Of a stretch of DNA of 64,000 nucleotides, positions 10,085-39,074 are shown piece by piece; position 1 is the first letter of the stretch, and the number at the start of each line of letters is the position of its first letter. The stretch is from Prostheceraeus crozeri (lineage: Eukaryota > Platyhelminthes > Polycladida > Euryleptidae): contig CAJQUW010000515.1 of the NCBI GenBank assembly GCA_907163375.1, forward strand, positions 1 through 64,000. The letters run 5' to 3'. The notes beneath the pieces are model-generated. The model was given only the letters and a program-made list of their open reading frames with translations. It made no database searches and was not told the DNA's origin. The position numbers and the translations under genes were made by a program.

Positions 10085-10090
10085 AAGGCT
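10085..10090. repeat. Left target site duplication of P2 (AAGGCT)
   Basis: AAGGCT lies directly before the AGTAGTAACC terminus and again directly after the opposite terminus at 21385-21390. Six-bp duplications are characteristic of Polinton integration by a retroviral-type integrase. Confidence 0.85.
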
Positions 10091-10330
10091 AGTAGTAACC
10101 CCATGGCAGGCGCAAGGACAAAATGCGAAACGATGAGTCATCATGCTGACTCAGTCCCCCCCTCTGGCGAGAGGAAGTGGCCAAGGATGTGCTGGGAGGA
10201 ATGGGTCCGAGAGGAGGAAACAGGTCCCTACCTCCCCCCTCTGGAAGGAAGGAAGGAAGGAACTGAGAGGCAAGGGATGGGGAGGAAGGTGATGTGTGAG
10301 GGATAGAGTGAGGAAAGGGTGGGTGTTGAT

Positions 10331-10976
10331 GGTGTTTGGGATGAGAAAAGTCGTTTTTCGGGCAGAAGGAGGGTTCGGATGGGAAAACGGAGGCCAGATT
10401 CGGAATCTTCGTGAAATGTTGGGTTAGGAAGGATGTTTCCAGCGACATCGGAGAGAAAAAAATTTGAGGACGGCCCCCCCCCTCCTGCCAAACTTCCAAC
10501 TTTGGTGTTAGAAATCGTAGAAAGTCATGTGATAGCTCATTTAAAGGCTAAGAGTGAGAAAAATGCAGTGGAAAGCTCAGTTTGGACTACTTTTCCTGGG
10601 TTCAGGGAGGAAAATGGCAGGAAACGTCAGAGTTGGAAAAGTCGGGTGTTGGAGGTTTTGGGATGAGAAAAGTCGTTTTTCGACAGGAAGGAGACCTCGG
10701 ATGGTAAAACGGAGTGGAAATTCGGACGTTTTGACCAATTTTGGGTCTAGGAACTTCTTCCCAACTCCATCGAAGAGAAAAAGTTCTGACACCCCCCCCC
10801 TCGGTAGCGATCTTCCAACTTTGGTTGTAGACATCGTAGAAAGTCGTGCAATAGCTCGTTTGAAAGCTAAGAATGAGAAAAATGCAGTGGAAATTATGGC
10901 TTGTTCCTACCTGCTTTCGTTTAGAGGTGAGACGTTATTGAAAATTTGGAGCATTGGCGAAAAACGACAGAGTTAG
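10331..10976. repeat. About 320-bp subterminal repeats, two units (left)
   Basis: Units start near 10341 and 10663 with GGGATGAGAAAAGTCGTTTTTC and share GTAGAAAGTCRTG, AGCTCRTTTRAAAGCTAAG and a C-run. The right arm holds three units (period about 320). Related units lie at 47390-48060 in P4. ORFs through these units (for example 10554-10976) follow the repeat and are probably not genes. Confidence 0.8.
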
Positions 10977-11108
10977 AATTCTTACGAAAATCGCTCTAGC
11001 AGGTGAAGCAAGCCTCGGACGGGAAAACAGAGACCAGATTTGGAATCAGCGTGCCATGTTACACCTGAATGTCATTTATGCTATGTCTCCAAAGTGAAAG
11101 GAAGAAAG

Positions 11109-11531
11109 ATGACAGAAGCAGTAAAGTTTACGAATGAATTTTGTTCACTACGTTTTCATCAACAAAGGCTTCGTGGTGTGATTAGGGACTACATCATCTC
11201 ATTTCATCATGAAATAGCAGACTTAGAATTTGCTATCGCTAAAGGTTGCTTCGTTTTCCAACAGCTCATGGACAGTTTGATGAATAAAGATGTGAAAGGA
11301 CGATTAGTTGCAGAGATTGAATTTGAGAAAGTGACTGATGAACGTGCAGGTGAACGTGTAGTGTTTAATTTTGCATCCTATTCTGCAGAGACGATACATG
11401 ATCCCAAACATTTCTATCAGCAACACATGACGAAAATTGCATCTCGACTAGATTCATTTCATGAGCATGGATCCAACTTGCTCTTATGTCTAATAAAACA
11501 CATTCATATTCAACTCAATGTGCTAAACTAG
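11109..11531 (+). CDS. Stand-alone polymerase N-terminal-like domain protein
   Basis: Intact frame; I take the ATG at 11109 because P4's counterpart starts at the same place in the alignment (MSFSNDCG... against MTEAVKFT...). The core FNFASYS...H...F..QHM.KI..RLD.F..HGSNLL...I.HIHIQL matches the N-terminal part of the P1 polymerase (SLPADMVLNF..WFERHL..L...F.....). So this is a domain that elsewhere is fused to Polinton polymerases, here free. Function unknown; a replication accessory or DNA/protein-binding role is inference. Copies: 13854, 20041 (minus) and 62909 (minus). Confidence 0.65.
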   Translation: MTEAVKFTNEFCSLRFHQQRLRGVIRDYIISFHHEIADLEFAIAKGCFVFQQLMDSLMNKDVKGRLVAEIEFEKVTDERAGERVVFNFASYSAETIHDPKHFYQQHMTKIASRLDSFHEHGSNLLLCLIKHIHIQLNVLN

Positions 11532-11669
11532 ATTTAACTACAAGATTTGGGAAAAGCATTCATGAGTCAGACGTCCGCGTGCCTCCTTTTCTCTGCCCCA
11601 ACGAAGTCAGGGGAGAAACGGAGGTCTCTGATTGGCTCACATAGTGTCAAATGTGGATTCGCAGGAGAC

Positions 11670-11677
11670 TATAAAAG
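11670..11677 (+). promoter_or_regulatory. TATA box (TATAAAAG) with inverted CCAAT upstream
   Basis: TATAAAAG about 105 bases before the ATG at 11778. ATTGG (inverted CCAAT) lies about 40 bases upstream in CTGATTGGCTCAC. The same TATA plus ATTGG arrangement precedes the gene at 14693. The 11547-11771 ORF spans this promoter and is probably spurious. Confidence 0.6.
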
Positions 11678-11777
11678 CAGACGTCTCCCCATTTTCTCTT
11701 CATTTCATTCTCTTGACTTGGAAAGCGTGTGTGACTTGCCAAAGCCATTCTTCCCTCTCAACTTTGTCTGATCAATC

Positions 11778-12041
11778 GTGTTTGCAAATTTGCAAGTGAG
11801 TGTCATGACGGTGTGGCCTAAACCTTACCAGCATTTTAGAAGAGAGACGCAGGAGAGTGTGTGGCCGATGATTGTACAGGCTTATTTTGTTGAACCATCA
11901 CCACCACCACCACCGCCTCCACCACCTAGACGCTTTACCTTTAAGTCTTTTAGGGAATTGAAACTCAATTCGGGTCCTAAGCCCAAGACATTTAATTTAC
12001 TGGACGATGACGAAGACTTAGACTTTGGTGATAAGCTTTAA
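11778..12041 (+). CDS. Small proline-rich, acidic-tailed protein
   Basis: 87 codons, or 78 from the in-frame ATG at 11805. It has a run of nine prolines (EPSPPPPPPPPP), then RRFTFKSFRELKL and an acidic end LLDDDEDLDFGDKL. I recognise no family. An acidic tail of this kind could be an activation or interaction region (inference). It has its own TATA promoter and a histone-type stem-loop 20 bases after the stop, so it looks like a separate transcription unit. The other arm carries the same ORF with one visible difference (YQHF to YKHF). Confidence 0.6.
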   Translation: MFANLQVSVMTVWPKPYQHFRRETQESVWPMIVQAYFVEPSPPPPPPPPPRRFTFKSFRELKLNSGPKPKTFNLLDDDEDLDFGDKL

Positions 12042-12061
12042 ATCATGTGAACGCCCCAAAA

Positions 12062-12077
12062 GGTCCTCTTAAGGGCC
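12062..12077 (+). terminator. Histone-type 3' stem-loop
   Basis: GGTCCTCTTAAGGGCC folds as a 6-bp stem with a 4-base loop, exactly the 16-nt size of the metazoan histone mRNA stem-loop. It is preceded by CCAAAA and followed by ACC, the flanks typical of histone genes. It starts 20 bases after the stop codon at 12041. A purine-rich downstream element is not obvious here. Confidence 0.65.
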
Positions 12078-12119
12078 ACCTCATATGTCACTGCTCAGCT
12101 AACAATTTTCTTTTCTCTG

Positions 12120-12848
12120 ATGATCATGAATGTACTTAGTGGTATTCTTTCGTTACAGACTGCCATGGCCATGAATCCTACTCCAACTGCTGCATCACTG
12201 AATCCTCAACATCTCGAGCTGTGGAATCCGAAAATTGAAAAGGTAATTCACGGCTATCCTACCTACAAACAACAAGTGCGCTACAACGGTGTTCGACTCT
12301 ATCTTCAAACGCCGGCGGTATACTTACCAAAAGTGAATGCGCAAGTAAATCGTTGCGATTAAAACCTGAGTATCCCTATTGATAATTGGTTGCGTCAGCA
12401 GCTTGACATTTTAGAAGACTTTGTGAGGCAAAAGGCTCTTATTCCTACTGAACTATTACAGTTGTGGCCAGAAAAGAAAACTTCCGATTGTAAACCTTTG
12501 TATCGCGGCACTCGCTGCTATATTTTGCAAAGCAAGTATTGTAAAGTCACTTCAGGAGTGACATTTGAACAGTCAGTTGAAACAGAATTGACATCGTTAG
12601 GTGCAGGCTTTTATTCCTTTCATATTGAGGTACCTGCTTTTTATGTGGGACCTCATAAATCTGACGGTAATTTGATTTCTCTCAATTTGCGCATTGCTCA
12701 AATTCATCATCAACCTGAGTTAACAGGACTTGATCACATTGAGGAAGTCATTGATTCTTGTGTCAAAGAGTGTCAAGAACCTGTCACCAAACCTAAACGT
12801 CGTCGCACATCAAAGAAAGATGGTGTTACCACCAAAGAGAAATCTTAA
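12120..12848 (+). pseudogene. Family X protein, paralog A, with an in-frame stop
   Basis: One frame from the ATG at 12120 to 12848, interrupted by a TAA at 12360-12362. The TAA is also present in the other arm, so it predates or was copied with the palindrome. The C-terminal core LGAGFYSFHIEVPAFYVGPH...L.SLNLRIAQI matches paralog B (GKGFYSFEIKIQTIYMSP...LFTLNPYLVSI) and the partial P4 gene at 63748-64000. The basic tail KPKRRRTSKK looks like a nuclear localisation signal. Function unknown; beta-rich, possibly nucleic-acid binding (inference). The last 29 bases overlap the start of the next gene. Confidence 0.6.
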
Positions 12849-12999
12849 GTATTGTAATCAGTTAGTATGTAGTGAATGTGGAAAACGCGGCCTTGCGCGC
12901 TATGTTCAAATAAAACATTGTAATCATGTTGTATGTATCTTTTGTTATGTAAAGGACAGACATCCTTGTAAAGTTCCTGCTCATTGTATTATCTTGTAA
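12820..12999 (+). CDS. Small zinc-binding (RING-like) protein
   Basis: ATG at 12820 lies inside the end of family X, in another frame. P4 repeats this overlap (63785 inside the X gene ending at 63748), which supports the start. Cysteine/histidine pattern: CSEC near residue 15, then CNHVVCIFC, then C and C near the end (HPCKVPAHC). The spacing resembles a short RING or treble-clef finger, but not enough is visible to call an E3 ligase. Missing from the right arm of P2. Confidence 0.6.
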   Translation: MVLPPKRNLKYCNQLVCSECGKRGLARYVQIKHCNHVVCIFCYVKDRHPCKVPAHCIIL

Positions 13000-13021
13000 T
13001 GAAGTCTTTTTGATATTGTAG

Positions 13022-13585
13022 GTTGTCATCTTCATAGACAGTGAGGGAACACCCATGCAGGAATTGAGTGCTATTGCAATGAGAGAAAGTGATCAAACTG
13101 TTGTTAGTGTATATCATAGATTTGCCTACTGTCCTCCACACAAAGACGAATGGTCACGACGTCATGTGCATGGACTTGATCCTTCTATTTTGATTCATAT
13201 TGGATTTGTGAATGAAACGTATTTGATAAATGATTTCAAACGGTGGCTGTCAGGTTTTCATATTGTTAAAATATTAGGAAATGATTCTGAACGAGAAGCA
13301 GCAACACTTCAGTTGCACAATGATAATTTATATTTACCATGTTGGGTAGATCGTGTAAAACAAGACTATCATATGCATTGTGATCGAAAGAAGTTCAGAC
13401 ATGAAATGATTTTTGACATGGCTATATGTTTCGGTGAGAGTCATCACCTGTACAGACCACCATCCCATTGCAATGCTAGAAATAAAGCTACCTACATTGC
13501 AAAACTCTCTTCACGCTGGCATTGTAGTCTCTATAACGCTTATGAACTGCATCTATATTATTGTCAACAGCATGGGTCTATGTAA
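13022..13585 (+). CDS. DEDDh-type (DnaQ-fold) exonuclease-like protein
   Basis: VIFIDSEG at the start of the open frame matches exonuclease motif I (DxE), GNDSEREA near the middle is the candidate second motif, and HCSLYNAYEL near 13520 matches H-x4-D of DEDDh nucleases, except that the final acidic residue is Asn here; the P4 copy has Asp. So the fold is likely, but this copy may be inactive. The open frame begins right after TAG at 13019-13021, preceded by a pyrimidine-rich stretch. P4 shows the same arrangement, which suggests a splice acceptor and an upstream exon. The first ATG is at 13055, after motif I. AATAAA follows near 13667. Confidence 0.65.
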   Translation, partial: VVIFIDSEGTPMQELSAIAMRESDQTVVSVYHRFAYCPPHKDEWSRRHVHGLDPSILIHIGFVNETYLINDFKRWLSGFHIVKILGNDSEREAATLQLHNDNLYLPCWVDRVKQDYHMHCDRKKFRHEMIFDMAICFGESHHLYRPPSHCNARNKATYIAKLSSRWHCSLYNAYELHLYYCQQHGSM

Positions 13586-13853
13586 AGCTTTTTTTTATTC
13601 CTTGTGAATGAATGATGATCATTTTATGAAGTGTATTCTGTACTTGTGAATTTTGTCTGGTGTTGAATAAACTTACAGTGGAACATGATTGTTATTTCTG
13701 TTTTATTCATAGTGGAAGTCATTGAAGCAATGTGAAATCTATAGTCACAACGTTTATGATGGCGCATCGTACACTAAGTAACGAGGTATGTGTTTTGACA
13801 CTTGATCAACAAGGATTCGATGGATTTTACAAGATTGGAAACTTACATTTAAA

Positions 13854-14177
13854 ATGAAGATGAATGATATGAAAGTAGTGCTCACTGAAAGCCTTCCTCT
13901 CTTCAAAAGATTGATGGAGAGTTTACAACCTCAAGATGTGAAGAGTGGACTCGTTGCTTATATAGAGTTGAAAGATTTGCAAAAACCACTTCGTTTTGGA
14001 TCTTATTGCACAGAATGGATTACTCTTAGTGATCAATTTTATGTCCGTCATATGGAGAAAATTATGGAGAGAATAGAAGAGCCGTTGGAAGGAAATGCGT
14101 ACGTTGTTAAACATATCATGATTCAACTGAGTGTGTTTAGATCCACGACTTTGTTTGATGCTCGACACATTGCGTAG
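13854..14177 (+). CDS. Second stand-alone polymerase N-terminal-like domain protein
   Basis: 107 codons. SGLVAYIELKD, FGSYCTEW, FYVRHMEKIMERIEE and VVKHIMIQLSVF align with the proteins at 11109 and 62909 (minus). It lacks the N-terminal 30 or so residues of those. AATAAA follows 13 bases after the stop. In the right arm only the first 34 codons remain (18269-18369). Confidence 0.6.
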   Translation: MKMNDMKVVLTESLPLFKRLMESLQPQDVKSGLVAYIELKDLQKPLRFGSYCTEWITLSDQFYVRHMEKIMERIEEPLEGNAYVVKHIMIQLSVFRSTTLFDARHIA

Positions 14178-14227
14178 ATGCAATAAAGATTTCTTTTCAC
14201 TGAGTATTTTGTAATGCTGTATAGAGC

Positions 14228-14491
14228 AACATGAGTCATTGCGCTTTGTGCATTACTATCAGGCTCTTTGTTAGATAAATGAATGCGTCTTTGTTCGAGA
14301 AAAGGGGCGTGTCATAACATGAGTCATTGCGCTTTGTGCATTACTATCAGGCTCTTTGTTAGATAAATGAATGCGTCTTTGTTCGAGAAAAGGGGCGTGT
14401 CATAACATGAGTCATTGCGCTTTGTGCATTACTATCAGGCTCTTTGTTAGATAAATGAATGCGTCTTTGTTCGCTAGAAGGGATGCGTCAC
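14228..14491. repeat. 88-bp tandem repeat, three units
   Basis: Units start at 14228, 14316 and 14404 and are near-identical: AACATGAGTCATTGCGC... to ...AGAAAAGGGGCGTGTCAT. Each has the AP-1-like core TGAGTCA. The third unit diverges at its end (CTAGAAGGGATGCGTCAC). The right arm has two units, so copy number changed after the arms formed. It sits upstream of the paralog B promoter and may be regulatory. Confidence 0.85.
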
Positions 14492-14640
14492 TAAAGTCTT
14501 TGTGAGGACTAGAACGACTTTGTAAGAGGGAAGGTTTCCACCCACGCAGTCAAAAGTTCACGTGTGATAACTCTTTGTCATGCAACAAAGACAGGGAAAA
14601 CGAGAAAAGGGAAACGCATGTGATTGGAGCTAGGTTTGGT

Positions 14641-14647
14641 TATAAAA
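14641..14647 (+). promoter_or_regulatory. TATA box (TATAAAA) with inverted CCAAT upstream
   Basis: TATAAAACAGACG with ATTGG 20 bases upstream (GTGATTGGAGC). Both this TATA and the one at 11670 are followed closely by CAGACG. It lies 52 bases before the chosen ATG at 14693. Confidence 0.6.
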
Positions 14648-14692
14648 CAGACGACTGAGCTCATGGCAATCATTTCCGTCCTTGCGCTAACC

Positions 14693-15259
14693 ATGCAGTT
14701 GCTCGAAGCCATCAACTCCTCTGCTCTCGCACTGGGTACACTGAACTCCCTTACTTTAGCATCGGGTAAAAATGCTTTCAATCAAAAGATAACTCATCAT
14801 GGAGAAGCCGTGACCATAAAAACTCCAAGTCATCGGATAGATTATCTAAAAATTATGTCAACAAAGCATGGACTGGCCGTGTGTGTGCCGTTAGACTATT
14901 GGACACGGTTACAATTCAATACTCTTGAAACATTCCTGAAAGAAAATCTCACCATTCCCAAAGAAATTGTTCGACACAATGGGAAGCGGTCACAAGTCCC
15001 CATCATGGAAAGACGATACATGTATGTTCATATGGATAGACACTGTCTCATCATCCATGAAAAGGAGGGCAGCGAATTCGACTTACTCAATTGCAAACCG
15101 CTCCCCATTTTGGGAAAAGGATTCTACTCCTTCGAAATTAAAATTCAAACCATCTACATGAGTCCGCGCAGGGACGGAAGGTTGTTTACGTTGAATCCCT
15201 ATCTTGTCTCCATCACCTTTAAAAATGATGTCCATGTTGATGATGATCAACTACAGTAA
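14693..15259 (+). CDS. Family X protein, paralog B
   Basis: Intact. I choose the ATG at 14693 (MQLLEAINSS) because upstream ATGs at 14624 and 14663 fall before or too close to the TATA box. The C-terminal core ILGKGFYSFEIKIQTIYMSP matches paralog A, and LAVCVPLDYW..L.FNTLETFL matches LSIPIDNWLRQQLDILEDF there. No signal peptide or membrane segment is obvious. Function unknown; co-inherited with exonuclease and polymerase-domain genes. The stop is followed 30 bases later by a histone-type stem-loop and a CAAGAAAGA element. An almost identical intact copy lies in the right arm. Confidence 0.65.
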   Translation: MQLLEAINSSALALGTLNSLTLASGKNAFNQKITHHGEAVTIKTPSHRIDYLKIMSTKHGLAVCVPLDYWTRLQFNTLETFLKENLTIPKEIVRHNGKRSQVPIMERRYMYVHMDRHCLIIHEKEGSEFDLLNCKPLPILGKGFYSFEIKIQTIYMSPRRDGRLFTLNPYLVSITFKNDVHVDDDQLQ

Positions 15260-15288
15260 CACTCTCCACACACTGAGAACGCACCATC

Positions 15289-15335
15289 GGTCTTTATGAG
15301 ACCACGGCCTAACGGCCACCGTATCAAGAAAGAAA
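15289..15335 (+). terminator. Histone-type 3' stem-loop plus CAAGAAAGA downstream element
   Basis: GGTCTTTATGAGACC (15289-15303) can form a 5-bp stem with ACCATC before it. A second small hairpin GGCC-TAAC-GGCC lies at 15306-15317. CAAGAAAGAAA is at 15325-15335, identical to the U7-binding downstream element (CAAGAAAGA) of animal histone genes, 21 bases after the stem. The loop is one base off the canonical histone size. Confidence 0.65.
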
Positions 15336-15357
15336 ATGTACACTCACCTCGCCACAC

Positions 15358-15748
15358 ATGAACATGACTCTCTCTCCTTCTTTCTTAGGCATACCCTTCT
15401 TCACTCAGGTTTTAATCATGTGGAAATTATCAGCATGGCTCCATGTATCATGGAAAAGTCAGTGTGTTACATTTCATGATACGAAACGTCAACTTCAGAT
15501 AACTCTAGAACGCTTTCATCTACGAAGGTTGCAATCGCGCAATCCTATCCAACTCTTGCCGTGTCATTAACGTAGGAGACGGCATTGTATTTATTCGCAT
15601 TCAAGAGATGATTCTACATAATGATCACTGCTACATTGTGATTCCAAAACCCTCATGGGAAAAGTATAAAAGGGAAGTTCACTCAACCCTCATGTCATTT
15701 GTGAGTCATGCTCCCCATCCGCATCATCAACGCCATGCGCGAAATGAA
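15358..15748 (+). pseudogene. PC4-like protein (two frames)
   Basis: A first frame 15358-15570 (MWKLSAWLHVSWKSQCVTFHD...) and a second frame from about 15570 (VGDGIVFIRIQ...CYIVIPKPSWEKYKREVHSTLMSFVS). Together these match the domain pair upstream of the P4 TBP (SWKLDSLQHVEIG... and ...IYHSQLSICFTF..., NWEKYKRWIHRSIMSF). Four strands followed by a helix would fit the single-strand-binding PC4 fold, but that is inference. A frame change near 15540-15600 separates the halves. The second frame stays open into the TBP gene up to 16048. Confidence 0.45.
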
Positions 15749-16235
15749 TCTCAGAAGAGACATCGATTTAGAACAGTTGCATACCCATCTTCCCGATTCA
15801 GTATATCATCGCGGTCGTCCGCAAATGTTGGTCATTCGCATGAGCAACGGTCGAAATCTTCAAATCTTTCACTGCGGCAAAATCCAAGTCCTAGGAAACC
15901 TTTCTCATTTCGTGATGCAGTCCATGTGTTACGAAGTCGTCAAGAAAATGCGAACACTCATGCCTCAACTACACCTCAGTCCCCTGACATTGAAGAATAT
16001 AGTAGTGTCTGTTCAATTGAAGATGTTAGTGAATCTAGCCAACATTAAAACCAGTAATCATTGTATATTTTATGAAACTGAACTCTTTCCTGCTGCTCTG
16101 ATTCGGAAGTGGCATCCTGTACATATTCCATTGTTTCACAACGGACATTGTATCATGACTGGTTTACGTGATATCGGTAAAGTGGCTGACACTGTTAAAT
16201 CTCTAATGCGTTATCTGTATGAGTCACACAGTTAA
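15708..16235 (+). CDS. TATA-binding-protein-like protein
   Basis: 176 codons, the size of the TBP core domain, intact. Two direct repeats are visible. Repeat 1: RDIDLEQLHTHLPDSVYHRG, then LQIFHCGKIQVLGN. Repeat 2: LKNIVVSVQL, then YETELFPAALI and IPLFHNGHCIMTG. These align with the two TBP repeats, including YEPELFPG and IF.SGK..xTG. Three of the four DNA-kinking phenylalanines are kept; the first is replaced by Pro (HRGRPQM). Expected role: binding TATA-type promoters of the element or redirecting host transcription (inference). It lies directly behind a PC4-like gene, as in P4. Confidence 0.88.
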   Translation: MLPIRIINAMREMNLRRDIDLEQLHTHLPDSVYHRGRPQMLVIRMSNGRNLQIFHCGKIQVLGNLSHFVMQSMCYEVVKKMRTLMPQLHLSPLTLKNIVVSVQLKMLVNLANIKTSNHCIFYETELFPAALIRKWHPVHIPLFHNGHCIMTGLRDIGKVADTVKSLMRYLYESHS

Positions 16236-16258
16236 TAGAATCGTGTTAATCACATGAT

Positions 16259-16317
16259 GCCCTTTTCACTGACAAGAGTGTGGGCGATAGTTCATTGCGA
16301 TGACTCATTCAAAACGT
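16259..16317. other. Unique centre (loop) of the P2 palindrome
   Basis: A 59-bp sequence present once between the arms. It contains GCCC...CACT-GACAAG-AGTG...GGGC, a small hairpin, and TGACTCA at 16299-16305. It is the turn-around point of the snap-back structure. Confidence 0.8.
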
Positions 16318-16326
16318 ATCATGTGA

Positions 16327-16866
16327 TTAACACGATTCTATTAACTGTGACTCATACAGATAACGCATTAGAGATTTAACAATGTCAGCTACTTTACTGA
16401 TATCACGTAAACCAGTCATGATACAATGTCCGTTGTGAAACAATGGAATATGTACAGGATGCCACTTCCGAATCAGAGCAGCAGGAAAGAGTTCAGTTTC
16501 ATAAAATATACAATGATTACTGGTTTTAATGTTGGCTAGATTCACTAACATCTTCAATTGAACAGACACTACTATATTCTTCAATGTCAGGGGACTGAGG
16601 TGTAGATGAGGCATGAGTGTTCGCATTTTCTTGACGACTTCGTAACACATGGACTGCATCACGAAATGAGAAAGGTTTCCTAGAACTTGGATTTTGCCGC
16701 AGTGAAAGATTTGAAGATTTCGACCGTTGCTCATGCGAATGACCAACATTTGCGGACGACCGCGATGATATACTGAATCGGGAAGATGGGTATGCAACTG
16801 TTCTAAATCGATGTCTCTTCTGAGATTCATTTCGCGCATGGCGTTGATGATGCGGATGGGGAGCAT
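16327..16866 (-). CDS. TATA-binding-protein-like protein, second copy
   Basis: Mirror copy of the gene at 15708, also intact (180 codons). Differences seen: MPQLHLS to MPHLHLS, DIGKVADT to DISKVADI, and a 2-base deletion near the end that changes the last residues to ESQLIESC. All other TBP features, including three of the four phenylalanines, are the same. Confidence 0.88.
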   Translation of the reverse strand: MLPIRIINAMREMNLRRDIDLEQLHTHLPDSVYHRGRPQMLVIRMSNGRNLQIFHCGKIQVLGNLSHFVMQSMCYEVVKKMRTLMPHLHLSPLTLKNIVVSVQLKMLVNLANIKTSNHCIFYETELFPAALIRKWHPVHIPLFHNGHCIMTGLRDISKVADIVKSLMRYLYESQLIESC

Positions 16867-17216
16867 GACTCACAAATGACATGAGGGTTGAGTGAACTTC
16901 CCTTTTATACTTTTCCCATGAGGGTTTTGGAATCACAATGTAGCAGTGATCATTATGTAGAATCATCTCTTGAATGCGAATAAATACAATGCCGTCTCCT
17001 ACGTTAATGACACGGCAAGAGTTGGATAGGATTGCGCGATTGCAACCTTCGTAGATGAAAGCGTTCTAGAGTTATCTGAAGTTGACGTTTCGTATCATGA
17101 AATGTAACACACTGACTTTTCCATGATACATGGAGCCATGCTGATAATTTCCACATGATTAAAACCTGAGTGAAGAAGGGTATGCCTAAGAAAGAAGGAG
17201 AGAGAGTCATGTTCAT
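16826..17216 (-). pseudogene. PC4-like protein, second copy
   Basis: Mirror of 15358-15748 with the same frame change. The second frame again stays open across the TBP start (to 16526). Confidence 0.45.
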
Positions 17217-17238
17217 GTGTGGCGAGGTGAGTGTACAT

Positions 17239-17285
17239 TTTCTTTCTTGATACGGTGGCCGTTAGGCCGTGGTCTCATAAAGACC
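17239..17285 (-). terminator. Mirror histone-type stem-loop and CAAGAAAGA element
   Basis: Reverse complement of 15289-15335: stem-loop 17271-17285 and TTTCTTTCTTG (CAAGAAAGAAA on the minus strand) at 17239-17249. Unchanged between the arms. Confidence 0.65.
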
Positions 17286-17314
17286 GATGGTGCGTTCTCA
17301 GTGTGTGGAGAGTG

Positions 17315-17881
17315 TTACTGTAGTTGATCATCATCAACATGGACATCATTTTTAAAGGTGATGGAGACAAGATAGGGATTCAACGTAAACAACCTTCCGT
17401 CCCTGCGCGGACTCATGTAGATGGTTTGAATTTTAATTTCGAAGGAGTAGAATCCTTTTCCCAAAATGGGGAGCGGTTTGCAATTGAGTAAGTCGAATTC
17501 GCTGCCCTCCTTTTCATGGATGATGAGACAGTGTCTATCCATATGAACATACATGTATCGTCTTTCCATGATGGGGACTTGTGACCGCTTCCCATTGTGT
17601 CGAACAATTTCTTTGGGAATGGTGAGATTTTCTTTCAGGAATGTTTCAAGAGTATTGAATTGTAACCGTGTCCAATAGTCTAACGGCACACACACGGCCA
17701 GTCCATGCTTTGTTGACATAATTTTTAGATAATCTATCCGATGACTTGGAGTTTTTATGGTCACGGCTTCTCCATGATGAGTTATCTTTTGATTGAAAGC
17801 ATTTTTACCCGATGCTAAAGTAAGGGAGTTCAGTGTACCCAGTGCGAGAGCAGAGGAGTTGATGGCTTCGAGCAACTGCAT
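17315..17881 (-). CDS. Family X protein, paralog B, second copy
   Basis: Mirror of 14693-15259, intact, with the start chosen by the same reasoning. I see no amino-acid difference within this span by eye. Confidence 0.65.
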   Translation of the reverse strand: MQLLEAINSSALALGTLNSLTLASGKNAFNQKITHHGEAVTIKTPSHRIDYLKIMSTKHGLAVCVPLDYWTRLQFNTLETFLKENLTIPKEIVRHNGKRSQVPIMERRYMYVHMDRHCLIIHEKEGSEFDLLNCKPLPILGKGFYSFEIKIQTIYMSPRRDGRLFTLNPYLVSITFKNDVHVDDDQLQ

Positions 17882-18082
17882 GGTTAGCGCAAGGACGGAA
17901 ATGATTGCCATGAGCTCAGTCGTCTGTTTTATAACCAAACCTTGCTCCAATCACATGCGTTTCCCTTTTCTCGTTTTCCCTGTCTTTGTTGCATAACAAA
18001 GAGTTATCACACGTGAACTTTTGACTGCGTGGGTGGAAACCTTCCCTCTTACAAAGTCGTTCTAGTCCTCACAAAGATTTTA

Positions 18083-18268
18083 GTGACGCATCCCTTCTAG
18101 CGAACAAAGACGCATTCATTTATCTAACAAAGAGCCTGATAGTAATGCACAAAGCGCAATGACTCATGTTATGACACGCCCCTTTTCTCGAACAAAGACG
18201 CATTCATTTATCTAACAAAGAGCCTGATAGTAATGCACAAAGCGCAATGACTCATGTTATGACACGCC
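18083..18268. repeat. 88-bp tandem repeat, two units (right arm)
   Basis: Mirror of the array at 14228-14491 with one unit fewer. It ends in GACACGCC at 18268, directly joined to the truncated second N-domain gene. Confidence 0.85.
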
Positions 18269-18369
18269 ACGAGTCCACTCTTCACATCTTGAGGTTGTAA
18301 ACTCTCCATCAATCTTTTGAAGAGAGGAAGGCTTTCAGTGAGCACTACTTTCATATCATTCATCTTCAT
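18269..18369 (-). pseudogene. Truncated second N-domain gene
   Basis: Only the first 34 codons of the 13854 gene remain. The sequence then jumps to the 88-bp repeat, so about 370 bp were lost in this arm. Confidence 0.75.
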
Positions 18370-18539
18370 TTTAAATGTAAGTTTCCAATCTTGTAAAATC
18401 CATCGAATCCTTGTTGATCAAGTGTCAAAACACATACCTCGTTACTTAGTGTACGATGCGCCATCATAAACGTTGTGACTACAGATTTCACATTGCTTCA
18501 ATGACTTCCACTATGAATAAAACAGAAATAACAATCATG

Positions 18540-18613
18540 TTCCACTGCAATTTTCGTCATGTGTTGCTGAATATTGAATATGAATGTGTTTTATGAGACA
18601 TAAGAGCAAGTTA
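18540..18613. other. Deletion junction with patchwork filler
   Basis: Where the left arm has 12538-13682 (end of family X A, zinc-binding gene, exonuclease), this arm has about 70 bases in at least two pieces copied from the N-domain gene: CAATTTTCGTCATGTGTTGC (as at 19710-19730) and TGAATATGAATGTGTTTTAT...AGAGCAAGTT (as at 19635-19675). Confidence 0.75.
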
Positions 18614-19030
18614 CTTGCTTTGCAAAATATAGCAGCGAGTGCCGCGATACAAAGGTTTACAATCGGAAGTTTTCTTTTCTGGCCACAACTGTAATAGTTC
18701 AGTAGGAATAAGAGCCTTTTGCCTCACAAAGTCTTCTAAAATGTCAAGCTGCTGACGCAACCAATTATCAATAGGGATACTCAGGTTTTAATCGCAACGA
18801 TTTACTTGCGCATTCACTTTTGGTAAGTATACCGCCGGCGTTTGAAGATAGAGTCGAACACCGTTGTAGCGCACTTGTTGTTTGTAGGTAGGATAGCCGT
18901 GAATTACCTTTTCAATTTTCGGATTCCACAGCTCGAGATGTTGAGGATTCAGTGATGCAGCAGTTGGAGTAGGATTCATGGCCATGGCAGTCTGTAACGA
19001 AAGAATACCACTAAGTACATTCATGATCAT
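18613..19030 (-). pseudogene. Family X paralog A, truncated second copy
   Basis: Mirror of the first part of 12120-12848 with the same in-frame TAA (at 18788-18790). The C-terminal core is lost in the deletion at 18613. Confidence 0.7.
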
Positions 19031-19072
19031 CAGAGAAAAGAAAATTGTTAGCTGAGCAGTGACATATGAGGT

Positions 19073-19088
19073 GGCCCTTAAGAGGACC
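19073..19088 (-). terminator. Mirror histone-type stem-loop
   Basis: Reverse complement of 12062-12077, unchanged, 20 bases after the minus-strand stop at 19109. Confidence 0.65.
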
Positions 19089-19108
19089 TTTTGGGGCGTT
19101 CACATGAT

Positions 19109-19372
19109 TTAAAGCTTATCACCAAAGTCTAAGTCTTCGTCATCGTCCAGTAAATTAAATGTCTTGGGCTTAGGACCCGAATTGAGTTTCAATTCCCTAA
19201 AAGACTTAAAGGTAAAGCGTCTAGGTGGTGGAGGCGGTGGTGGTGGTGGTGATGGTTCAACAAAATAAGCCTGTACAATCATCGGCCACACACTCTCCTG
19301 CGTCTCTCTTCTAAAATGCTTGTAAGGTTTAGGCCACACCGTCATGACACTCACTTGCAAATTTGCAAACAC
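19109..19372 (-). CDS. Small proline-rich, acidic-tailed protein, second copy
   Basis: Mirror of 11778-12041, intact, one residue different (YQHF to YKHF). The TATA box is mirrored upstream. Confidence 0.6.
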   Translation of the reverse strand: MFANLQVSVMTVWPKPYKHFRRETQESVWPMIVQAYFVEPSPPPPPPPPPRRFTFKSFRELKLNSGPKPKTFNLLDDDEDLDFGDKL

Positions 19373-19618
19373 GATTGATCAGACAAAGTTGAGAGGGAAG
19401 AATGGCTTTGGCAAGTCACACACGCTTTCCAAGTCAAGAGAATGAAATGAAGAGAAAATGGGGAGACGTCTGCTTTTATAGTCTCCTGCGAATCCACATT
19501 TGACACTATGTGAGCCAATCAGAGACCTCCGTTTCTCCCCTGACTTCGTTGGGGCAGAGAAAAGGAGGCACGCGGACGTCTGACTCATGAATGCTTTTCC
19601 CAAATCTTGTAGTTAAAT

Positions 19619-20041
19619 CTAGTTTAGCACATTGAGTTGAATATGAATGTGTTTTATTAGACATAAGAGCAAGTTGGATCCATGCTCATGAAATGAATCT
19701 AGTCGAGATGCAATTTTCGTCATGTGTTGCTGATAGAAATGTTTGGGATCATGTATCGTCTCTGCAGAATAGGATGCAAAATTAAACACTACACGTTCAC
19801 CTGCACGTTCATCAGTCACTTTCTCAAATTCAATCTCTGCAACTAATCGTCCTTTCACATCTTTATTCATCAAACTGTCCATGAGCTGTTGGAAAACGAA
19901 GCAACCTTTAGCGATAGCAAATTCTAAGTCTGCCTTTTCATGATGAAATGAGATGATGTAGTCCCTAATCACACCACGAAGCCTTTGTTGATGAAAACGT
20001 AGTGAACAAAATTCATTCGTAAACTTTACTGCTTCTGTCAT
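19619..20041 (-). CDS. Stand-alone polymerase N-terminal-like domain protein, second copy
   Basis: Mirror of 11109-11531, intact; the visible change is HHEIADLEF to HHEKADLEF. Confidence 0.65.
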   Translation of the reverse strand: MTEAVKFTNEFCSLRFHQQRLRGVIRDYIISFHHEKADLEFAIAKGCFVFQQLMDSLMNKDVKGRLVAEIEFEKVTDERAGERVVFNFASYSAETIHDPKHFYQQHMTKIASRLDSFHEHGSNLLLCLIKHIHIQLNVLN

Positions 20042-20169
20042 CTTTCTTCCTTTCACTTTGGAGACATAGCATAAATGACATTCAGGTGTAACATGGCACG
20101 CTGATTCCAAATCTGGTCTCTGTTTTCCCGTCCGAGGCTTGCTTCACCTGCTAGAGCGATTTTCGTAAA

Positions 20170-21140
20170 AATTCTAACTCTGTCGTTTCTCGCCAATGCT
20201 CCAAATTTTCAATAACGTCTCACCTCTAAACGAAGGCAGGTAGGAACAAGCCATAATTTCCACTGCATTTTTCTCATTCTTAGCTTTCAAACGAGCTATT
20301 GCACGACTTTCTACGATGTCTACAACCAAAGATGGAAGATCGCTACCGAGGGGGGGGGTGTCAGAACTTTTTCTCTTCGATAGAGTTGGGAAGAAGTTTC
20401 TAGACCCAAAATTGGTCAAAACGTCCGAATTTCCACTCCTTTTTACCATCCGAGGTCTCCTTCCTGTCGAAAAACGACTTTTCTCATCCCAAAACATCCA
20501 ACATCCGCCTTTTCCAACTCTGACGTTTTCCTGCCATTCTCCTCCCTAAACCCAGGAAAATAGGACCAAACCGAGCTTTCTACTGCACTTTTCTCTTTTT
20601 TAGCTTTCAAACGAGCTATTGCACGACTTTCTACGATCTCCGGAACCAAAGTTGGAGGATCTCTACCGAATGGGAGGGGGGTGTCAGAACTTTTTCTCTT
20701 CGATGGAGTTGGGAAGAAGTTCCTAGACCCAAAATTGGTCAAAACGTCCGAATTTCCACTCCGTTTTACCATCCGATGTCTCCTTCCTGTCGAAAAACGA
20801 CTTTTCTCATCCCAAAACCTCCAACACCCGACTTTTCCAACTCTGACGTTTCCTGCCATTTTCCTCCCTGAACCCAGGAAAAGTAGTCCAAACTGAGCTT
20901 TCCACTGCATTTTTCTCACTCTTAGCCTTTAAATGAGCTATCACATGACTTTCTACGATTTCTAACACCAAAGTTGGAAGTTTGGCAGGAGGGGGGGGGG
21001 GACGTCCTCAAATTTTTTTCTCTCCGATGTCGCTGGAAACATCCTTCCTAACCCAACATTTCACGAAGATTCCGAATCTGGCCTCCGTTTTCCCATCCGA
21101 ACCCTCCTTCTGCCCGAAAAACGACTTTTCTCATCCCAAA
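20170..21140. repeat. About 320-bp subterminal repeats, three units (right)
   Basis: Units carry CTTTTCTCATCCCAAA near 20487, 20808 and 21128. This is one unit more than in the left arm. C/G homopolymer runs vary in length between units. Confidence 0.8.
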
Positions 21141-21384
21141 CACCACCAACACCCATCCTTTCCTCACTCTATCCCTCACACATCACCTTCCTCCCCATCC
21201 CTTGCCTCTCAGTTCCTTCCTTCCTTCCTTCCAGAGGGGGGAGGTAGGGACCTGTTTCCTCCTCTCGGACCCATTCCTCCCAGCACATCCTTGGCCACTT
21301 CCTCTCGCCAGAGGGGGGGACTGAGTCAGCATGATGACTCATCGTTTCGCATTTTGTCCTTGCGCCTGCCATGGGGTTACTACT

Positions 21385-21390
21385 AAGGCT
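21385..21390. repeat. Right target site duplication of P2 (AAGGCT)
   Basis: Identical to 10085-10090 and directly next to the GGTTACTACT terminus. Confidence 0.85.
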
Positions 21391-22421
21391 CCAAAAACAA
21401 TCGATGTCTGCCTTTCAAATGCTTTTACAGAAAATGTGAAGTTAATGGCAATTTAAACGTTAGAACTGAAATTTCGAAAGCAAATGCGTCGAACACAATA
21501 ACGAGGTGTACAGGTGAATAAACAGCTAAATGGAAATGACTGTTGCGGTTTTCGTTATCAAAGCATAAAACCATCTGAATCATCGTTATCCCGGAAAAAA
21601 ACGATTTCCTCATTATATTATGCCACATTTATGATATCGGATAAACATAAACGCATACTATAAAGAAGATTATTCCACACGGTGTAGGATAGAAAATCAC
21701 AACCGATCGTGCGAAAAAAGTGAATTCTTACCAAGCGTGGCGCATGAGATCAATCATCACACTAGACCGATTTCTATGTTATTTCTTTAGCTGTACCAAT
21801 GCCTCAGGGTCAATGAATATGCATTCACAGAGTCGTCACTTACAAAACATGTTTATTTAATATTAACACAAAGTTGAATTTTGAGAAATGTGAATTTTCG
21901 ACTGAATTCTACGCCAACACAGCCCATCTGAAATTCTCTGAACCTCACGACCAAAGTCCATGGGTTGCGATCACAGAAATTCCACTTTTCGATTTGTTTA
22001 AGTTAGTGGGACAATGGAGTGCCAGATTTCTATGGTTGCGGTAGTTTGACGGATGATAGTCTAATGAGCGATAGTCAAAAAATGCTCTAAATGACAATTG
22101 CTCTCATGGAATTCTCACTACATGCTTGGTGTGAGAGCTCAGAACAAACCGGTGTTAGGTCATGTCCAATCTCTTTAAGTTCCAGTCACACTTCGAGCTT
22201 TTCCAAGCGTTTCCGAGCAAATTGCTTTGCTGAAAATATAAAGTCATCATTGCAGCAGTTGTAGACTACCACAATGTACAAAGTGGGGCTGCTCGCGCTG
22301 CACCGGCTATCAGATCGGGGCACTGAAATGTGCGAATTTCCTTTGCAGGCTCTGTGGCCTTGTGGTGGAGTGTTCGTTCTGCATCCAGGAGACCTTGGCT
22401 CAAACCTTGGTCAAGTCAAGC
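21391..22421. other. Host-like DNA, nothing recognised
   Basis: No coding motif, RNA gene or repeat structure found in this stretch. Confidence 0.5.
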
Positions 22422-22863
22422 CTTAGGCTGCGTTTACACGTGCAACTTGATTGCTGCCACTTTTCGATCCATGATGAGTCAGAAAAGAATGGACAAACAA
22501 TTGAAGTAAATGCATGCCTTCAATCATCGTGCTTCGTGCGTCACCAGACAAAAGCAATCTAGCAAATGGTAATGAAGAGAAAAATGCATTGATTCATCAG
22601 CTCATCATCCTCTGAGTGTCAACTAAAGTTCAGCCGTGTTGAACTTTAGTTGCCACTTTTTACTGACACTCAGAGGATGATGAGCTGATGAATCAATGCA
22701 TTTTTCTCTTCATTACCATTTGCTAGATTGCTTTTGTCTGGTGACGCACGAAGCACGATGATTGAAGGCATGCATTTACTTCAATTGTTTGTCCATTCTT
22801 TTCTGACTCATCATGGATCGAAAAGTGGCAGCAATTAAGTTGCACGTGTAAACGCAGCCTAAG
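22422..22863. mobile_element. MITE/foldback element, about 442 bp
   Basis: CTTAGGCTGCGTTTACACGT at the left, its reverse complement at the right, and near-perfect pairing of the whole length except a short centre around GTTCAGCCGTGTTGAAC. No coding capacity. A target duplication is not evident. Confidence 0.75.
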
Positions 22864-25068
22864 ACTTTTAAAGTAGGCACACTCTGCATTCTTGCTATAG
22901 TGGAGCTGTGGAGAAAGTCAACAACTGTATCCGCTACCGAGCAATGTTTGTCTCCACCAAAACCTTGCTATAGGTTGCAAATTTGAAAAATTGCAATTTT
23001 AGGCTTTGTATTTTATTCTTGTCACAATATGCCGAATGATGCACTGACATCGTTGACAAAATATCCATGAGTTTCGTCTGTTTTTTTAAATGCTCTGTCA
23101 CGAATTTCTTGAAGCCAGACAATGTTATGATGCACCAGTTCAGAGAATGCTCTATAATGTAATATAACAATCAACAAAGTAAAAAAGTAAGCAATTTGAT
23201 TATCTAAGAAAACTTCAATGTCCTGTCAGTTCTTTATTTGCTTTTGCAAAAGGATGTGTTCGATGCTACAGCCGACAACCTCGAATGTTTTTGTTAAGTA
23301 GAAATAAAAAATAACAATGTTCCTGCCTTGAGAATACGATGCGTGGTGATTCCCAAAGAAATTGGATACTTTATTTATACATTCATATTTGAATGCACCC
23401 TTTGATGAAAAATAAAGCAATTGAAAAATACAGTGTGCAGCGAAATACACACTGTGTCTATTACAAATTTTCAAAATTTTGTAAAATATTTATTGCAAAT
23501 TCTCGCTGATAAAACGGCTATTTCACGTAAAAAGGAGACACAAAATATAGATGTTTTGCTCGCCATGATTTTTCTTTATTGCTGAGTCAAGGCTTCACAG
23601 ATTTTATCATAATGGCCTCTCTAAAGCGCAGATTCATGCTGGTAGTGTATCAAGCTATGTCTTTCACTGTGAGCGGGAAAACTATGTCAAGGGAGCAATT
23701 TTTGTCGATAGCTAAATGCACTTGAGTCCTTGAGTGATCTCTGATCATTGTGTGGAGAGAACGGACTATTCCCGGTGCAACTCATGTGTACATTGTACGA
23801 ACGCGCTTTAGACAGGCCATCACGTAAAACCTATGAAAACTTAGCTTCAATGCCAAAGAAGAATGCAAAGCATTGTATTTTAGCTCTTATGTAATCCTCC
23901 CCGTGTATATCTGCGAAAATTTGTCGCAAATTTTAATGCAGCATAATTTTCTTTAAGCACCATGTTTGCAAGAAAATATAAATGTACGTATGCCAAGCTG
24001 CTTTATAGAATCCACAAAATCTACATTTTTTTACAAATGTTCAGCTAGAAAAGGATTTTTCAAAATGCTAAGCAAATATCTTCATTATATCAGAGCTAAA
24101 ATACTAATGCCTGATATGCTGTGCACTCGTCTTTGTTGTTGAGACTTGGTTTCATGGATTTTGTTAGTATAACCTCTCTGAACCGCTAATTATAAGATCC
24201 TATGATTTTTATATCAAAAGGAAACACTAGGCTGACGGGAGCAGCTGTGGTGATACTTAAATATGCTGTAGTCTCTATTTTTGGCATGCTCTATAATCCG
24301 CATGTAAGCTTATTTTCAAATGCTCATTGACTCTTCCCAACCAATGGCTTGAAAACATTGAGTCATCATTGATGGCTACTTAAACTCTTCTGACATCCAT
24401 GGATATCGTGGAGATAACCATTTAACGACTAAATTGCTTTGTGCATAAATGTAGTCTTTTATATTAATACTTTTGTTAGTTTTATTAATTATATACTTTT
24501 CGTTAGATTTAGCACGTATGGTTCTTTGGAATATAAAACTTCGTTTCTTCCATTGAGGCTATTCAAATGTGTAGTTTCTACGTGTCCGCATAGTACATGT
24601 ACAGCACAAGCAAACATGAGGTTGTATTACGAGCGGTCTTTCTTCGGACTCGCTATTCATTCACCTGGTGAAATTATTTTTAACTTTTGAATAATCATCA
24701 TCACGTTAGCCTTGGTTGGTCTATGGGAATGGATGTAGAAGTCTACGGAGAAAGAAACGAATAGCCAGATGAAAATGAGAGAGAACCAGAGACACAGATT
24801 TTCTGCCGACAGCAGAAAAAAGCAGAATTGCTACTATTACGAAAAATAGGCCGCATGTGACTCTTCTTCTTTGGCAATTCTAGGACAGTTATCATGTCTT
24901 TAGGCAAAGATTATCCTTGTTCGAGGTACACGTAATGATTTGGCTTCTTTACCACTAATATGCTGTATATTGCGCTCTTAGTTTCAGAAATTTGGAAACT
25001 CTAGAACCAAACCCTTTTTGATTCTTATTCGTCAACGATTTCTTGTATGTAGTTTATGAGGATGTACA
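22864..25068. other. AT-rich host-like DNA, nothing recognised
   Basis: Short ORFs only (for example 22934-23170 minus, 24439-24690 plus), with no motif or repeat I can name. Confidence 0.5.
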
Positions 25069-25460: not shown

Positions 25461-25611
25461 GAATATAATTCACAACACAAAAGTCGCAGAGATAGCACTT
25501 TATTGGGCGAGCGCTTTCGAGTATTTCCACTCATCTACAGGCATCATTCAACGGTAAAAGCAAGCCTAAATACAATTTCAGGTGGCGCGAGTTAAAATCA
25601 AATCAATCCAA

Positions 25612-26229
25612 TTAAAATAAGAACAATTCTTCTGATGTGCTGTGGTTGTTCAGTAGGCTTTTATTCTTTGTGATGTATTGTTTGATGAAAAGGGTTTCTG
25701 TTATTTTTGTGTCGTTTGTGCGCATGAGTATTCTGAAGCTGTTGTGTGTTGGTGGGTGAATGTGTGTCGAGATTTCTGACAGTGGGCGACCTTTGATATG
25801 TTCGTTAATGCGGGTTTGCAGGTGACGGCGCGTCTCTCCGATGTAACACTTGTCACAGTGTTCACATTTGAATTCATATACTAAGGAGGAGCACACGTTA
25901 GAGGGGATAGTATCTTTGTTTTTGAAAATTTGTTGGGTTTTGTAGGTTCTGTAATACGGTACAATTTTGGTTTTATCTAAAATTCTGTTAATTTTATGAA
26001 TTTCTTTAGCCATGATTTTTTCACATTCCTTGATGAAAGGAAGGCCATAAAAGATTTTGGTTTTGTCTTCACTAGACTCATCAGAATTCTGCTGTGTATT
26101 TTGGGACCTTTTTTCGCTCATGCATTTTTGAATATATTTTGGGTGGTAGCCGTTCCTTTGGAAGATTTCTTTTATGATTTTATCATTTTCGATTTTATCG
26201 CAACTATAAGTAGTAAGCCTTTCCGATCT
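25612..26229 (-). pseudogene. Penelope GIY-YIG region, 5'-truncated inverted copy
   Basis: Encodes the linker and GIY-YIG domain from KNRSERL onward in the minus direction; the ORF 25612-26121 is open. Differs from the plus copy at few positions (for example ITKNKS against ITQNKS). Confidence 0.8.
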
Positions 26230-27084
26230 AGGGATGAAGTTGATACTTTTCTAAGACAACTTAATTCTAAGGAAAAAAACATTCAATTCACTGTCGAGCA
26301 TTCGATAAATGGCTCTATCAACTTCCTTGACATGACCGTTACTCTCAATGATAACAGTCTTAGATGTAAATGGTTCATTAAGCCTACTAACAGTGGCCTG
26401 TATATCCCGAGTAGCTCATATTGTCCTTCGCAATACAAAAAGAACACCATTGTGGCCTTGAAAAATAGATCGGAAAGGCTTACTACTTATAGTTGCGATA
26501 AAATCGAAAATGATAAAATCATAAAAGAAATCTTCCAAAGGAACGGCTACCACCCAAAATATATTCAAAAATGCATGAGCGAAAAAAGGTCCCAAAATAC
26601 ACAGCAGAATTCTGATGAGTCTAGTGAAGACAAAACCAAAATCTTTTATGGCCTTCCTTTCATCAAGGAATGTGAAAAAATCATGGCTAAAGAAATTCAT
26701 AAAATTAACAGAATTTTAGATAAAACCAAAATTGTACCGTATTACAGAACCTACAAAACCCAACAAATTTTCAAAAACAAAGATACTATCCCCTCTAACG
26801 TGTGCTCCTCCTTAGTATATGAATTCAAATGTGAACACTGTGACAAGTGTTACATCGGAGAGACGCGCCGTCACCTGCAAACCCGCATTAACGAACATAT
26901 CAAAGGTCGCCCACTGTCAGAAATCTCGACACACATTCACCCACCAACACACAACAGCTTCAGAATACTCATGCGCACAAACGACACAAAAATAACAGAA
27001 ACCCTTTTCATCAAACAGTACATCACACAGAATAAAAGCCTACTGAACAACCACAGCACATCAGAAGAATTGTTCTTATTTTAA
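26230..27084 (+). pseudogene. Penelope RT C-terminal part with GIY-YIG endonuclease, 5'-truncated
   Basis: The longer ORF starting at 25996 is chimeric: its first 78 codons are antisense of the inverted copy. True Penelope sequence begins at about 26230: INFLDMTVTL (post-catalytic RT), a lysine-rich linker, CEHCDKCYIGETRRHLQTRI (CxxC plus GIY-YIG core with the catalytic Arg) and a downstream ...ETLFIKQY containing the expected Glu. The RT catalytic core (YADD) is missing. The nuclease would open the target DNA for reverse transcription. Confidence 0.88.
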
Positions 27085-27134
27085 TTGGATTGATTTGATT
27101 TTAACTCGCGCCACCTGAAATTGTATTTAGGCTT

Positions 27135-27196
27135 GCTTTTACCGTTGAATGATGCCTGTAGATGAGTGGAAATACTCGAAAGCGCTCGCCCAATAA
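27135..27196 (+). ncRNA. Possible hammerhead ribozyme remnant in Penelope 3' region
   Basis: CTGTAGATGAG...CTCGAAAGCG resembles the hammerhead core (CUGANGA, stem II GAGT/ACTC, GAAA). One invariant core position is changed (U instead of A), so activity is doubtful. Penelope-like elements are known to carry hammerhead motifs. Confidence 0.3.
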
Positions 27197-39058: not shown

Positions 39059-39074
39059 AAAAGTTTTATTAAAA

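Follow-up and report, generated by a model that had tools for sequence, protein, structure and literature searches.

Hairpins behind four genes of Polinton regions

The window analysed here, the whole stretch of 64,000 nt from the polyclad flatworm Prostheceraeus crozeri (GenBank assembly GCA_907163375.1, contig CAJQUW010000515.1, positions 1 to 64,000), carries four genes, A to D, each followed by a hairpin resembling that at the 3′ end of replication-dependent histone mRNAs. Genes A and B lie in a large inverted duplication and genes C and D in a Polinton (Maverick). Directly behind the hairpins of C and D stands a conserved block, occurring at both places, that has the architecture of a hepatitis delta virus (HDV)-like ribozyme.

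The Polinton occupies the window in part, from about 47.4 kb to the window end, and its right end lies outside. It is assigned to the Polintons by a DNA polymerase B (PolB) piece at 53723–54442 (plus strand; PF03175, 29.6 bits) and an integrase (rve, PF00665) with a chromodomain at 59148–60347 (minus strand). PolB, the chromodomain-bearing integrase and repeated termini are shared with other Polintons and Mavericks; beyond the usual content, the element family encodes a two-lobed TATA-binding protein (TBP), represented here by a TBP-like gene at 56281–56940 (plus strand; PF00352, 70.4 bits). The last coding stretch of gene C (48833–49318, plus strand, stop to stop) is followed by a predicted intron in the 3′ untranslated region (3′ UTR; 49330–49391) and by hairpin C (49413–49427, plus strand; GGCCT-TTAAG-AGGTC, 15 nt), which lies 32 nt behind the stop once the predicted intron is left out. 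The open reading frame (ORF) of gene D (87 aa; 49586–49849, plus strand) is preceded by a TATA box at 49541–49547 (plus strand), and 24 nt behind its stop stands hairpin D (49874–49888, plus strand; GGTCT-TTAAG-AGACC, 15 nt). An earlier note on this DNA lists hairpins A and B, and hairpins C and D are absent from it.

The inverted duplication spans 10090–21385 around a 117-nt centre, and its right arm lacks about 1.1 kb. ORF A (78 aa; 11805–12041, plus strand) ends in a TAA stop at 12039–12041, and 20 nt further on lies hairpin A (12062–12077, plus strand), GGTCCT-CTTA-AGGGCC, flanked by CCAAAA on the 5′ side and ACC on the 3′ side. Its exact 16-nt histone geometry, its flanks and its distance from the stop are just as the earlier note described them. 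The motif TGAACG at 12048–12053 (plus strand) is common to host histone 3′ UTRs. ORF B (198 aa; 14663–15259, plus strand) precedes hairpin B (15289–15303, plus strand), which starts 29 nt behind its stop and reads GGTCT-TTATG-AGACC, forming either 5 bp with a 5-nt loop or 6 bp including a U·G with a 3-nt loop. This hairpin had been described as similar to the first one; it is histone-like, and at 15 nt it is a variant of the exact form. Both hairpins are indeed mirrored within the duplication, B at 17271–17285 and A at 19073–19088 on the minus strand, where the copies begin at 17285 and 19088, respectively.

The earlier note had called the genes in front of hairpins A and B Polinton genes, and the label is borne out in part. 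The duplication carries a TBP-like gene (15705–16232, plus strand; PF00352, 72.8 bits), its outer part (10.3–11 kb) shares repeats with 47400–47981 of the second Polinton, and several genes of that Polinton have homologues in the duplication; on the other side, the ten left-arm ORFs scanned against Pfam include no PolB or integrase. The duplication may represent two long terminal arms whose core has been lost. The two-lobed TBP-like genes of both regions have 64 homologues in the protein collection.

Hairpin sequences across the genome

Hairpin A aligns over its full length with the Rfam histone 3′ UTR family (Histone3, RF00032) at 21.6 bits, below the curated score of 34 (E = 0.21 with all 4227 families on 64 kb; 0.04 on 12.5 kb). 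Hairpin B is unlisted by Rfam at E up to 10 in the scan of the 64-kb window, and C and D are unlisted as well. Hairpin A follows the rule of a 6-bp stem, a 4-nt loop and 16 nt in all, and window hairpins B, C and D do not; because they are 15 nt long, they are histone-like rather than RF00032 members. A genome scan with RF00032 scored 75 of 295,389 first-look candidates, which makes its counts lower bounds; it gave at least 74 matches, at least 9 of them above the curated score. Among 9 such matches, 7 sit in Polintons (34.3–36.1 bits). ORFs of the window Polinton are matched by 28 of the 30 fetched RF00032 loci (L041–L068), with the hairpin in the C or D position; it reads GGCTCT-TTTA-AGAGCC in 27 of the 28 and GGCTCT-TTTT-AGAGCC in L044. 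The highest-scoring genomic Rfam histone hairpins found, L039 and L040 (38.2 and 36.6 bits), are accompanied by no matching H3, H4 or Polinton ORF.

The B/D-type hairpin GGTCTTTANGAGACCAC, with at most one mismatch, has 919 + 877 genomic matches versus 10 + 7 for the reversed pattern, and this excess indicates that the hairpins are not products of chance. Pattern and protein scans of a viral contig collection yielded no confirmed relative locus. The hairpin set comprises 98 modules, of which 40 were picked by the ribozyme core and 58 come from the fetched loci and the window, most of the latter having been found through their own or a neighbouring module's hairpin, which favours paired forms. 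Sixteen-nucleotide forms account for 68 of the 98 and 15-nt forms for 23, and 7 are unparsed. In the 68 16-nt forms, pair 3 is C-G in 43 and T-A in 21 (T-G in 4), pair 4 is T-A in 41 and C-G in 21 (T-G in 6), and pair 5 is C-G in 46 and T-A in 20 (C-A in 2). Pairs 3 to 5 of the hairpin change on both sides together between subfamilies.

Relationship to host histone 3′ ends

Among 30 host H3 loci, 29 have readable ends and 4 of these carry a hairpin, in every case GGCCCT-CTTA-AGGGCC located 26–30 nt behind the stop. The hairpin is also present in 5 of 11 fetched H4 ends and 1 of 8 H2B ends (a ninth stretch from the H2B search is an H3 fragment without a hairpin), and one host H3 hairpin scores 31.1 bits with RF00032. 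Hairpin A has the loop CTTA of the four hairpin-bearing H3 genes, and its flank is GTGAACGCCCCAAAA. The distance from stop to hairpin is 20–32 nt in the window and 26–38 nt in the host histone genes. The motif [AT]GAACG stands just before 7 of 10 host histone hairpins, the remaining three having GTGAAAG or GTGCGAACG, and just upstream of all four window hairpins, where 0.0066 occurrences are expected each. A scan for the flank plus any hairpin is not enriched by itself (a hairpin accompanies 7 of 42 motifs, 6 of the seven being hairpins studied here, versus 6 of 54 in the reversed control). The RNA-binding domain of host SLBP (PF15247) is split into two pieces, presumably exons, separated by 29 kb; they score 52.7 bits and 32.9 bits, the latter piece with one internal stop.

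The genome also holds many dispersed H3, H4 and H2B copies (L009–L038 and L073–L088; 735 and 287 first-look candidates gave 150 and 151 matches, respectively). The hairpin is lacking in 25 of the 29 readable H3 ends, and 20 of these 25 keep the 3′ UTR as far as GTGAA[AC]G and then diverge where the hairpin should start; several H4 and H2B copies likewise diverge at the expected hairpin start. By their sequence, these hairpin-less copies look like retrocopies ending at the hairpin base.

Hairpin A and most of its relatives are 16 nt long (6 + 4) with CCAAA-type and AC flanks, and the Polinton hairpins share with replication-dependent histone genes a position 20–32 nt behind the stop, the host histone flank and the lack of AATAAA within 400 nt. 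The differences are that the Polinton genes are not histones, that window B, C and D have 15 nt, and that no U7 element is recognised, a ribozyme-like block standing at the expected place of the U7 site in two Polinton genes. The earlier note had taken CAAGAAAGA, which is indeed present at 15325–15333 (plus strand), for the U7-binding element. As a U7 site it is unsupported and was set aside; it stands behind B only, and no such purine-rich element was seen by eye behind ten host histone hairpins. U7 RNA was not recognised in the genome either, the Rfam U7 model giving six sub-threshold matches (E 4.9–9.4), which is a weak test. The histone-type reading of the hairpins is supported by the host flank, the distance from the stop, the host SLBP domain and the scores of relatives in the C and D positions above the curated cut-off.

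The hairpins might alternatively be relics, copied from host histone genes, with no present role. Flank and hairpin of A together come close to a host histone 3′ UTR, dispersed histone copies are numerous, and among 16 young copies of hairpin A, selected through the preceding ORF, several have substitutions in the hairpin just as they do in the flanks. However, the hairpin occurs in four different genes at 20–32 nt behind the stop, and subfamilies differ by compensating changes in the stems of both hairpin and ribozyme, so we regard an origin as functionless relics as very unlikely.

No AATAAA occurs within 400 nt behind the four stops of A to D, and one ATTAAA lies 317 nt behind A. Because either signal is expected 0.79 times per 400 nt, this absence is weak evidence. 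In giant viruses and virophages, a palindrome fixes the site of tail addition, and Polintons are related to virophages. Hairpins just behind stop codons in a member of this group would suit such a rule, under which the Polinton messages would be tailed at the hairpin. The rule does not require the sequence and flanks of the host histone hairpin, which are nevertheless present, and its operation here appears extremely improbable.

Predicted HDV-like ribozymes behind genes C and D

The blocks behind hairpins C and D are 67–68 nt long and have the P1–P4 double pseudoknot architecture of HDV-like ribozymes. The predicted ribozyme C covers 49433–49499 (plus strand) with its predicted cut before 49433, and the predicted ribozyme D covers 49894–49961 (plus strand) with its predicted cut before 49894. 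P1 is GGGGCAA/TTGCCCT or GGAGCAA/TTGCTCT, 7 bp, with a first pair of G·U in 52 of 57 modules; P2 is GTGATAG/CTATCAC; P3, ACC/GGT, closes an L3 of TCC[AT]CGT; GG follows P1; P4 is CAGAC/GTCTG, and J4/2 is ACTGAAT. With HDV, CPEB3, R2 and L1Tc the blocks share a 7-bp P1, P2, a 3-bp P3, an L3 of 7 nt whose U and G lie five apart, a GG that follows P1, P4, the J4/2 C and an expected cut 5′ of P1, the last being predicted. Unlike these ribozymes, they follow a histone hairpin immediately, at the 3′ ends of protein-coding genes carried by a DNA element, and their self-cleavage is predicted.

In 57 distinct modules, pairing is found in 93.8% of 1230 cells, compared with 20.6–41.8% when slid. Cells changed on both sides number 41 versus 20.3 in shuffles, and none of 500 shuffles reached as high. 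Variation on both sides is seen in two pairs: P1 pair 3 is A-U in 24 modules, G-C in 24 and unpaired in 9, and P2 pair 1 is G-C in 35, A-U in 17, G-U in 2 and unpaired in 3. The L3 U is present in 57 of 57 modules, the L3 G in 55 and the J4/2 C in 56, and this C recurs in 37 of the 38 parsed members of the second set of 40. As far as the sources describe it, the L3 U and G together with the J4/2 C are a signature of HDV-like ribozymes (PMC3386971, PMC10879173), and the J4/2 C is the catalytic base in the family (PMC10879173). This C is second in J4/2 of the Polinton blocks as drawn here and first in the scheme of PMC10879173 that we compared. The core pattern with at most three mismatches has 707 + 727 (1,434) genomic matches versus 0 + 0 when reversed. 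A strict descriptor of our own, run on L041–L068, picked out 16 of the 54 modules and no other site there, and nothing in the reversed control.

The adjacency of hairpin and ribozyme was assessed in 40 plus-strand places taken from 100 listed core matches, all exact. The only criterion of choice was the ribozyme core, and common descent means that the 40 copies do not count as independent cases. P1 pairs at 7 of 7 positions in 37 of them. In 28 of the 40, all pairs form in a hairpin that ends 3–7 nt before P1 (3.3% in shuffles), and 39 have such a hairpin with no more than one unpaired position (30% in shuffles). The fully paired hairpins are of histone type in 27 of the 28, the exception, L089, being a chance pairing; by eye, L089 and L127 have lost the histone hairpin. 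The gap between hairpin and P1 is 4 or 5 nt in 37 of the 40. Histone pre-mRNA is cleaved at about this distance behind its hairpin.

An HDV-like ribozyme in a mobile element could instead serve the downstream RNA, as in R2 or L1Tc, by releasing the 5′ end of the transcript that follows, with the hairpin being incidental. Such a role is described for HDV-like ribozymes in mobile elements in the part of PMC4035085 considered here. However, a TATA box belonging to gene D follows ribozyme C, so that D need not share a transcript with C, and in 37 of 40 copies the distance between hairpin and predicted cut site is 4–5 nt. A downstream function therefore has, in our estimate, only a minute probability.

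No ribozyme site was named behind hairpins A and B in the descriptor scans of the window. A scan for P1 alone found one weak P1-like pairing behind A and none behind B. Among seven non-Polinton hairpins (those of five histone genes, L039 and L040), the same scan found two weak P1-like pairings apiece for two H4 genes, whereas the other five gave none. The rest of the ribozyme fold was not seen by eye at any of the weak pairings behind A or the H4 genes.

Model for mRNA 3′ end formation

We propose that, in genes C and D, a histone-type hairpin and a self-cleaving ribozyme together produce non-polyadenylated mRNAs of the SLBP type, and that genes A and B reach such ends through the host histone pathway. 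We put the probability of this reading at about 0.68. Transcription of the element genes would start from the TATA box and proceed through the hairpin, after which the HDV-like ribozyme of C and D would fold and cut 4–5 nt behind the hairpin. The predicted cut would leave mRNAs ending in hairpin-ACCAU or hairpin-ACAC without a poly(A) tail. Host SLBP might then bind the hairpin and provide stability, export and translation of the tail-less mRNA. The ribozyme would in this way replace cutting by the U7 small nuclear ribonucleoprotein and CPSF73; given an HDV-like block behind 49413 and 49874, 3′ end formation at these two places could do without U7. Genes A and B, behind which no ribozyme was seen, would be processed by the host histone pathway. 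Expression of the element in S phase, and a benefit to it, may follow. The broader claim that a virus-like element has evolved protein-free formation of histone-type mRNA 3′ ends, by a ribozyme cut that needs neither U7 nor the cleavage complex and yields tail-less mRNAs bound by SLBP, seems to us evenly balanced between true and false.

The most serious competitor holds that processing of hairpins A to D is entirely the work of the host histone pathway (SLBP and CPSF73, with U7 or without it) and that the structured RNA formed by the block behind C and D has some different role. It is favoured by the close likeness of hairpin A to host histone 3′ UTRs with no ribozyme seen behind it, by the presence of an SLBP domain in the host, and by the broken pairs in the window ribozyme copies. 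Against it, the block has every part of the HDV-like fold and a predicted cut 4–5 nt behind the hairpin, and no U7-type element was seen behind host hairpins. We consider processing by the host pathway alone unlikely, with a chance of its own that the other alternatives do not approach.

Several observations weigh against the ribozyme model, the comparisons for which were all made within one 2.05-Gb genome. Window hairpins B, C and D, with 15 nt, are contrary to the histone rule, and SLBP binding by 15-nt hairpins is the weakest link of the predicted chain. The window ribozyme copies are broken, C in one pair (P1 pair 5) and D in two (P2 pair 7 and P3 pair 3). The strict descriptor, which passes 16 of the 54 modules in L041–L068, misses both copies because of these broken pairs. 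A relaxed descriptor was rejected as non-discriminating, with 23 window matches (D included, C not) versus 11 in controls. The Rfam model of the CPEB3 ribozyme, which is HDV-like, aligns end to end with 49421–49499 at 14.6 bits (E 0.63 over 601 bases), a sub-threshold match ranked behind one to SNORA12 (E 0.26); the alignment to ribozyme C is suggestive only. No HDV-family model was listed for D, nor in the Rfam scan of the 64-kb window. Ribozyme pairs changed on both sides number 2 versus 2.6 in shuffles, and further pair types 12 versus 14.6. The C and D modules are paralogues, and gene conversion between them could transfer both partners of a pair in one event. Subfamily conservation over 27 loci is 88–89% for the ribozymes, compared with 90% for ORF D and 92% for the promoter spacer; because the ribozymes are no better conserved than their neighbours, conservation was rejected as proof of selection.

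Comparison with known systems

Theta ribozymes of gut phages, as presented in the part of PMC10879173 consulted, are small HDV-like ribozymes at tRNA 3′ ends that cleave in vitro. Like the Polinton blocks, they are viral HDV-like ribozymes that sit at the 3′ terminus of a functional RNA and are proposed to help generate that terminus. In contrast, the ends considered here are those of mRNAs in a eukaryotic DNA element, P4 is present, and cleavage is predicted from sequence.

The literature searched, outside which most subscription papers lie, contained no paper that links Polintons to SLBP, and none that links HDV-like ribozymes to Polintons or Mavericks. For histone stem-loop, SLBP and viral mRNA together, the same literature gave an engineered system only. 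A search for HDV-like ribozymes, transposable elements and histones led to trypanosomatid retrotransposons (PMC4035085, in part). HDV-like ribozymes and related subjects are treated in the consulted part of PMC4870747. Of the papers found for ribozymes and Polintons, PMC11071296 and PMC6431247 are, in the parts considered, not about mRNA ends made by hairpin and ribozyme. No report of ribozyme-made histone-type mRNA ends on Polintons was found in this literature.

Other features of the window

The second Polinton also encodes a 433-aa protein (57349–58647, minus strand) with 795 homologues and no Pfam match, a candidate capsid protein; a sequence search against solved structures gave weak matches, mostly designed ankyrin proteins. 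As regards a packaging ATPase, a P-loop-like stretch lies near 61.7 kb of this Polinton (by eye only). Outside the two Polinton regions, 22418–22867 holds a 204-nt inverted repeat that scores 78.2 bits against MIR5048, below its cut-off, and is probably a palindromic repeat. At 25499–27197, a 732-nt inverted repeat with 100% complementarity surrounds 235 nt and has GIY-YIG-like ORFs just under the Pfam cut-off. An AT-rich island of about 25% GC at 36000–46000, with a weak DNA polymerase B match at 40829–41434 below the Pfam cut-off, is perhaps another virus-like insertion.

Implications

If the ribozyme model is correct, a DNA element gains histone-like, tail-less expression that could follow replication, and a ribozyme can take the place of the histone cleavage machinery in nature. 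This would add a further natural route to a eukaryotic mRNA 3′ end and an example of an element escaping the poly(A) machinery. Two points, self-cleavage and the use of SLBP by a non-histone message, become accessible with a short RNA. Together with its own TBP, the Polinton would have, in part, its own system of gene expression.

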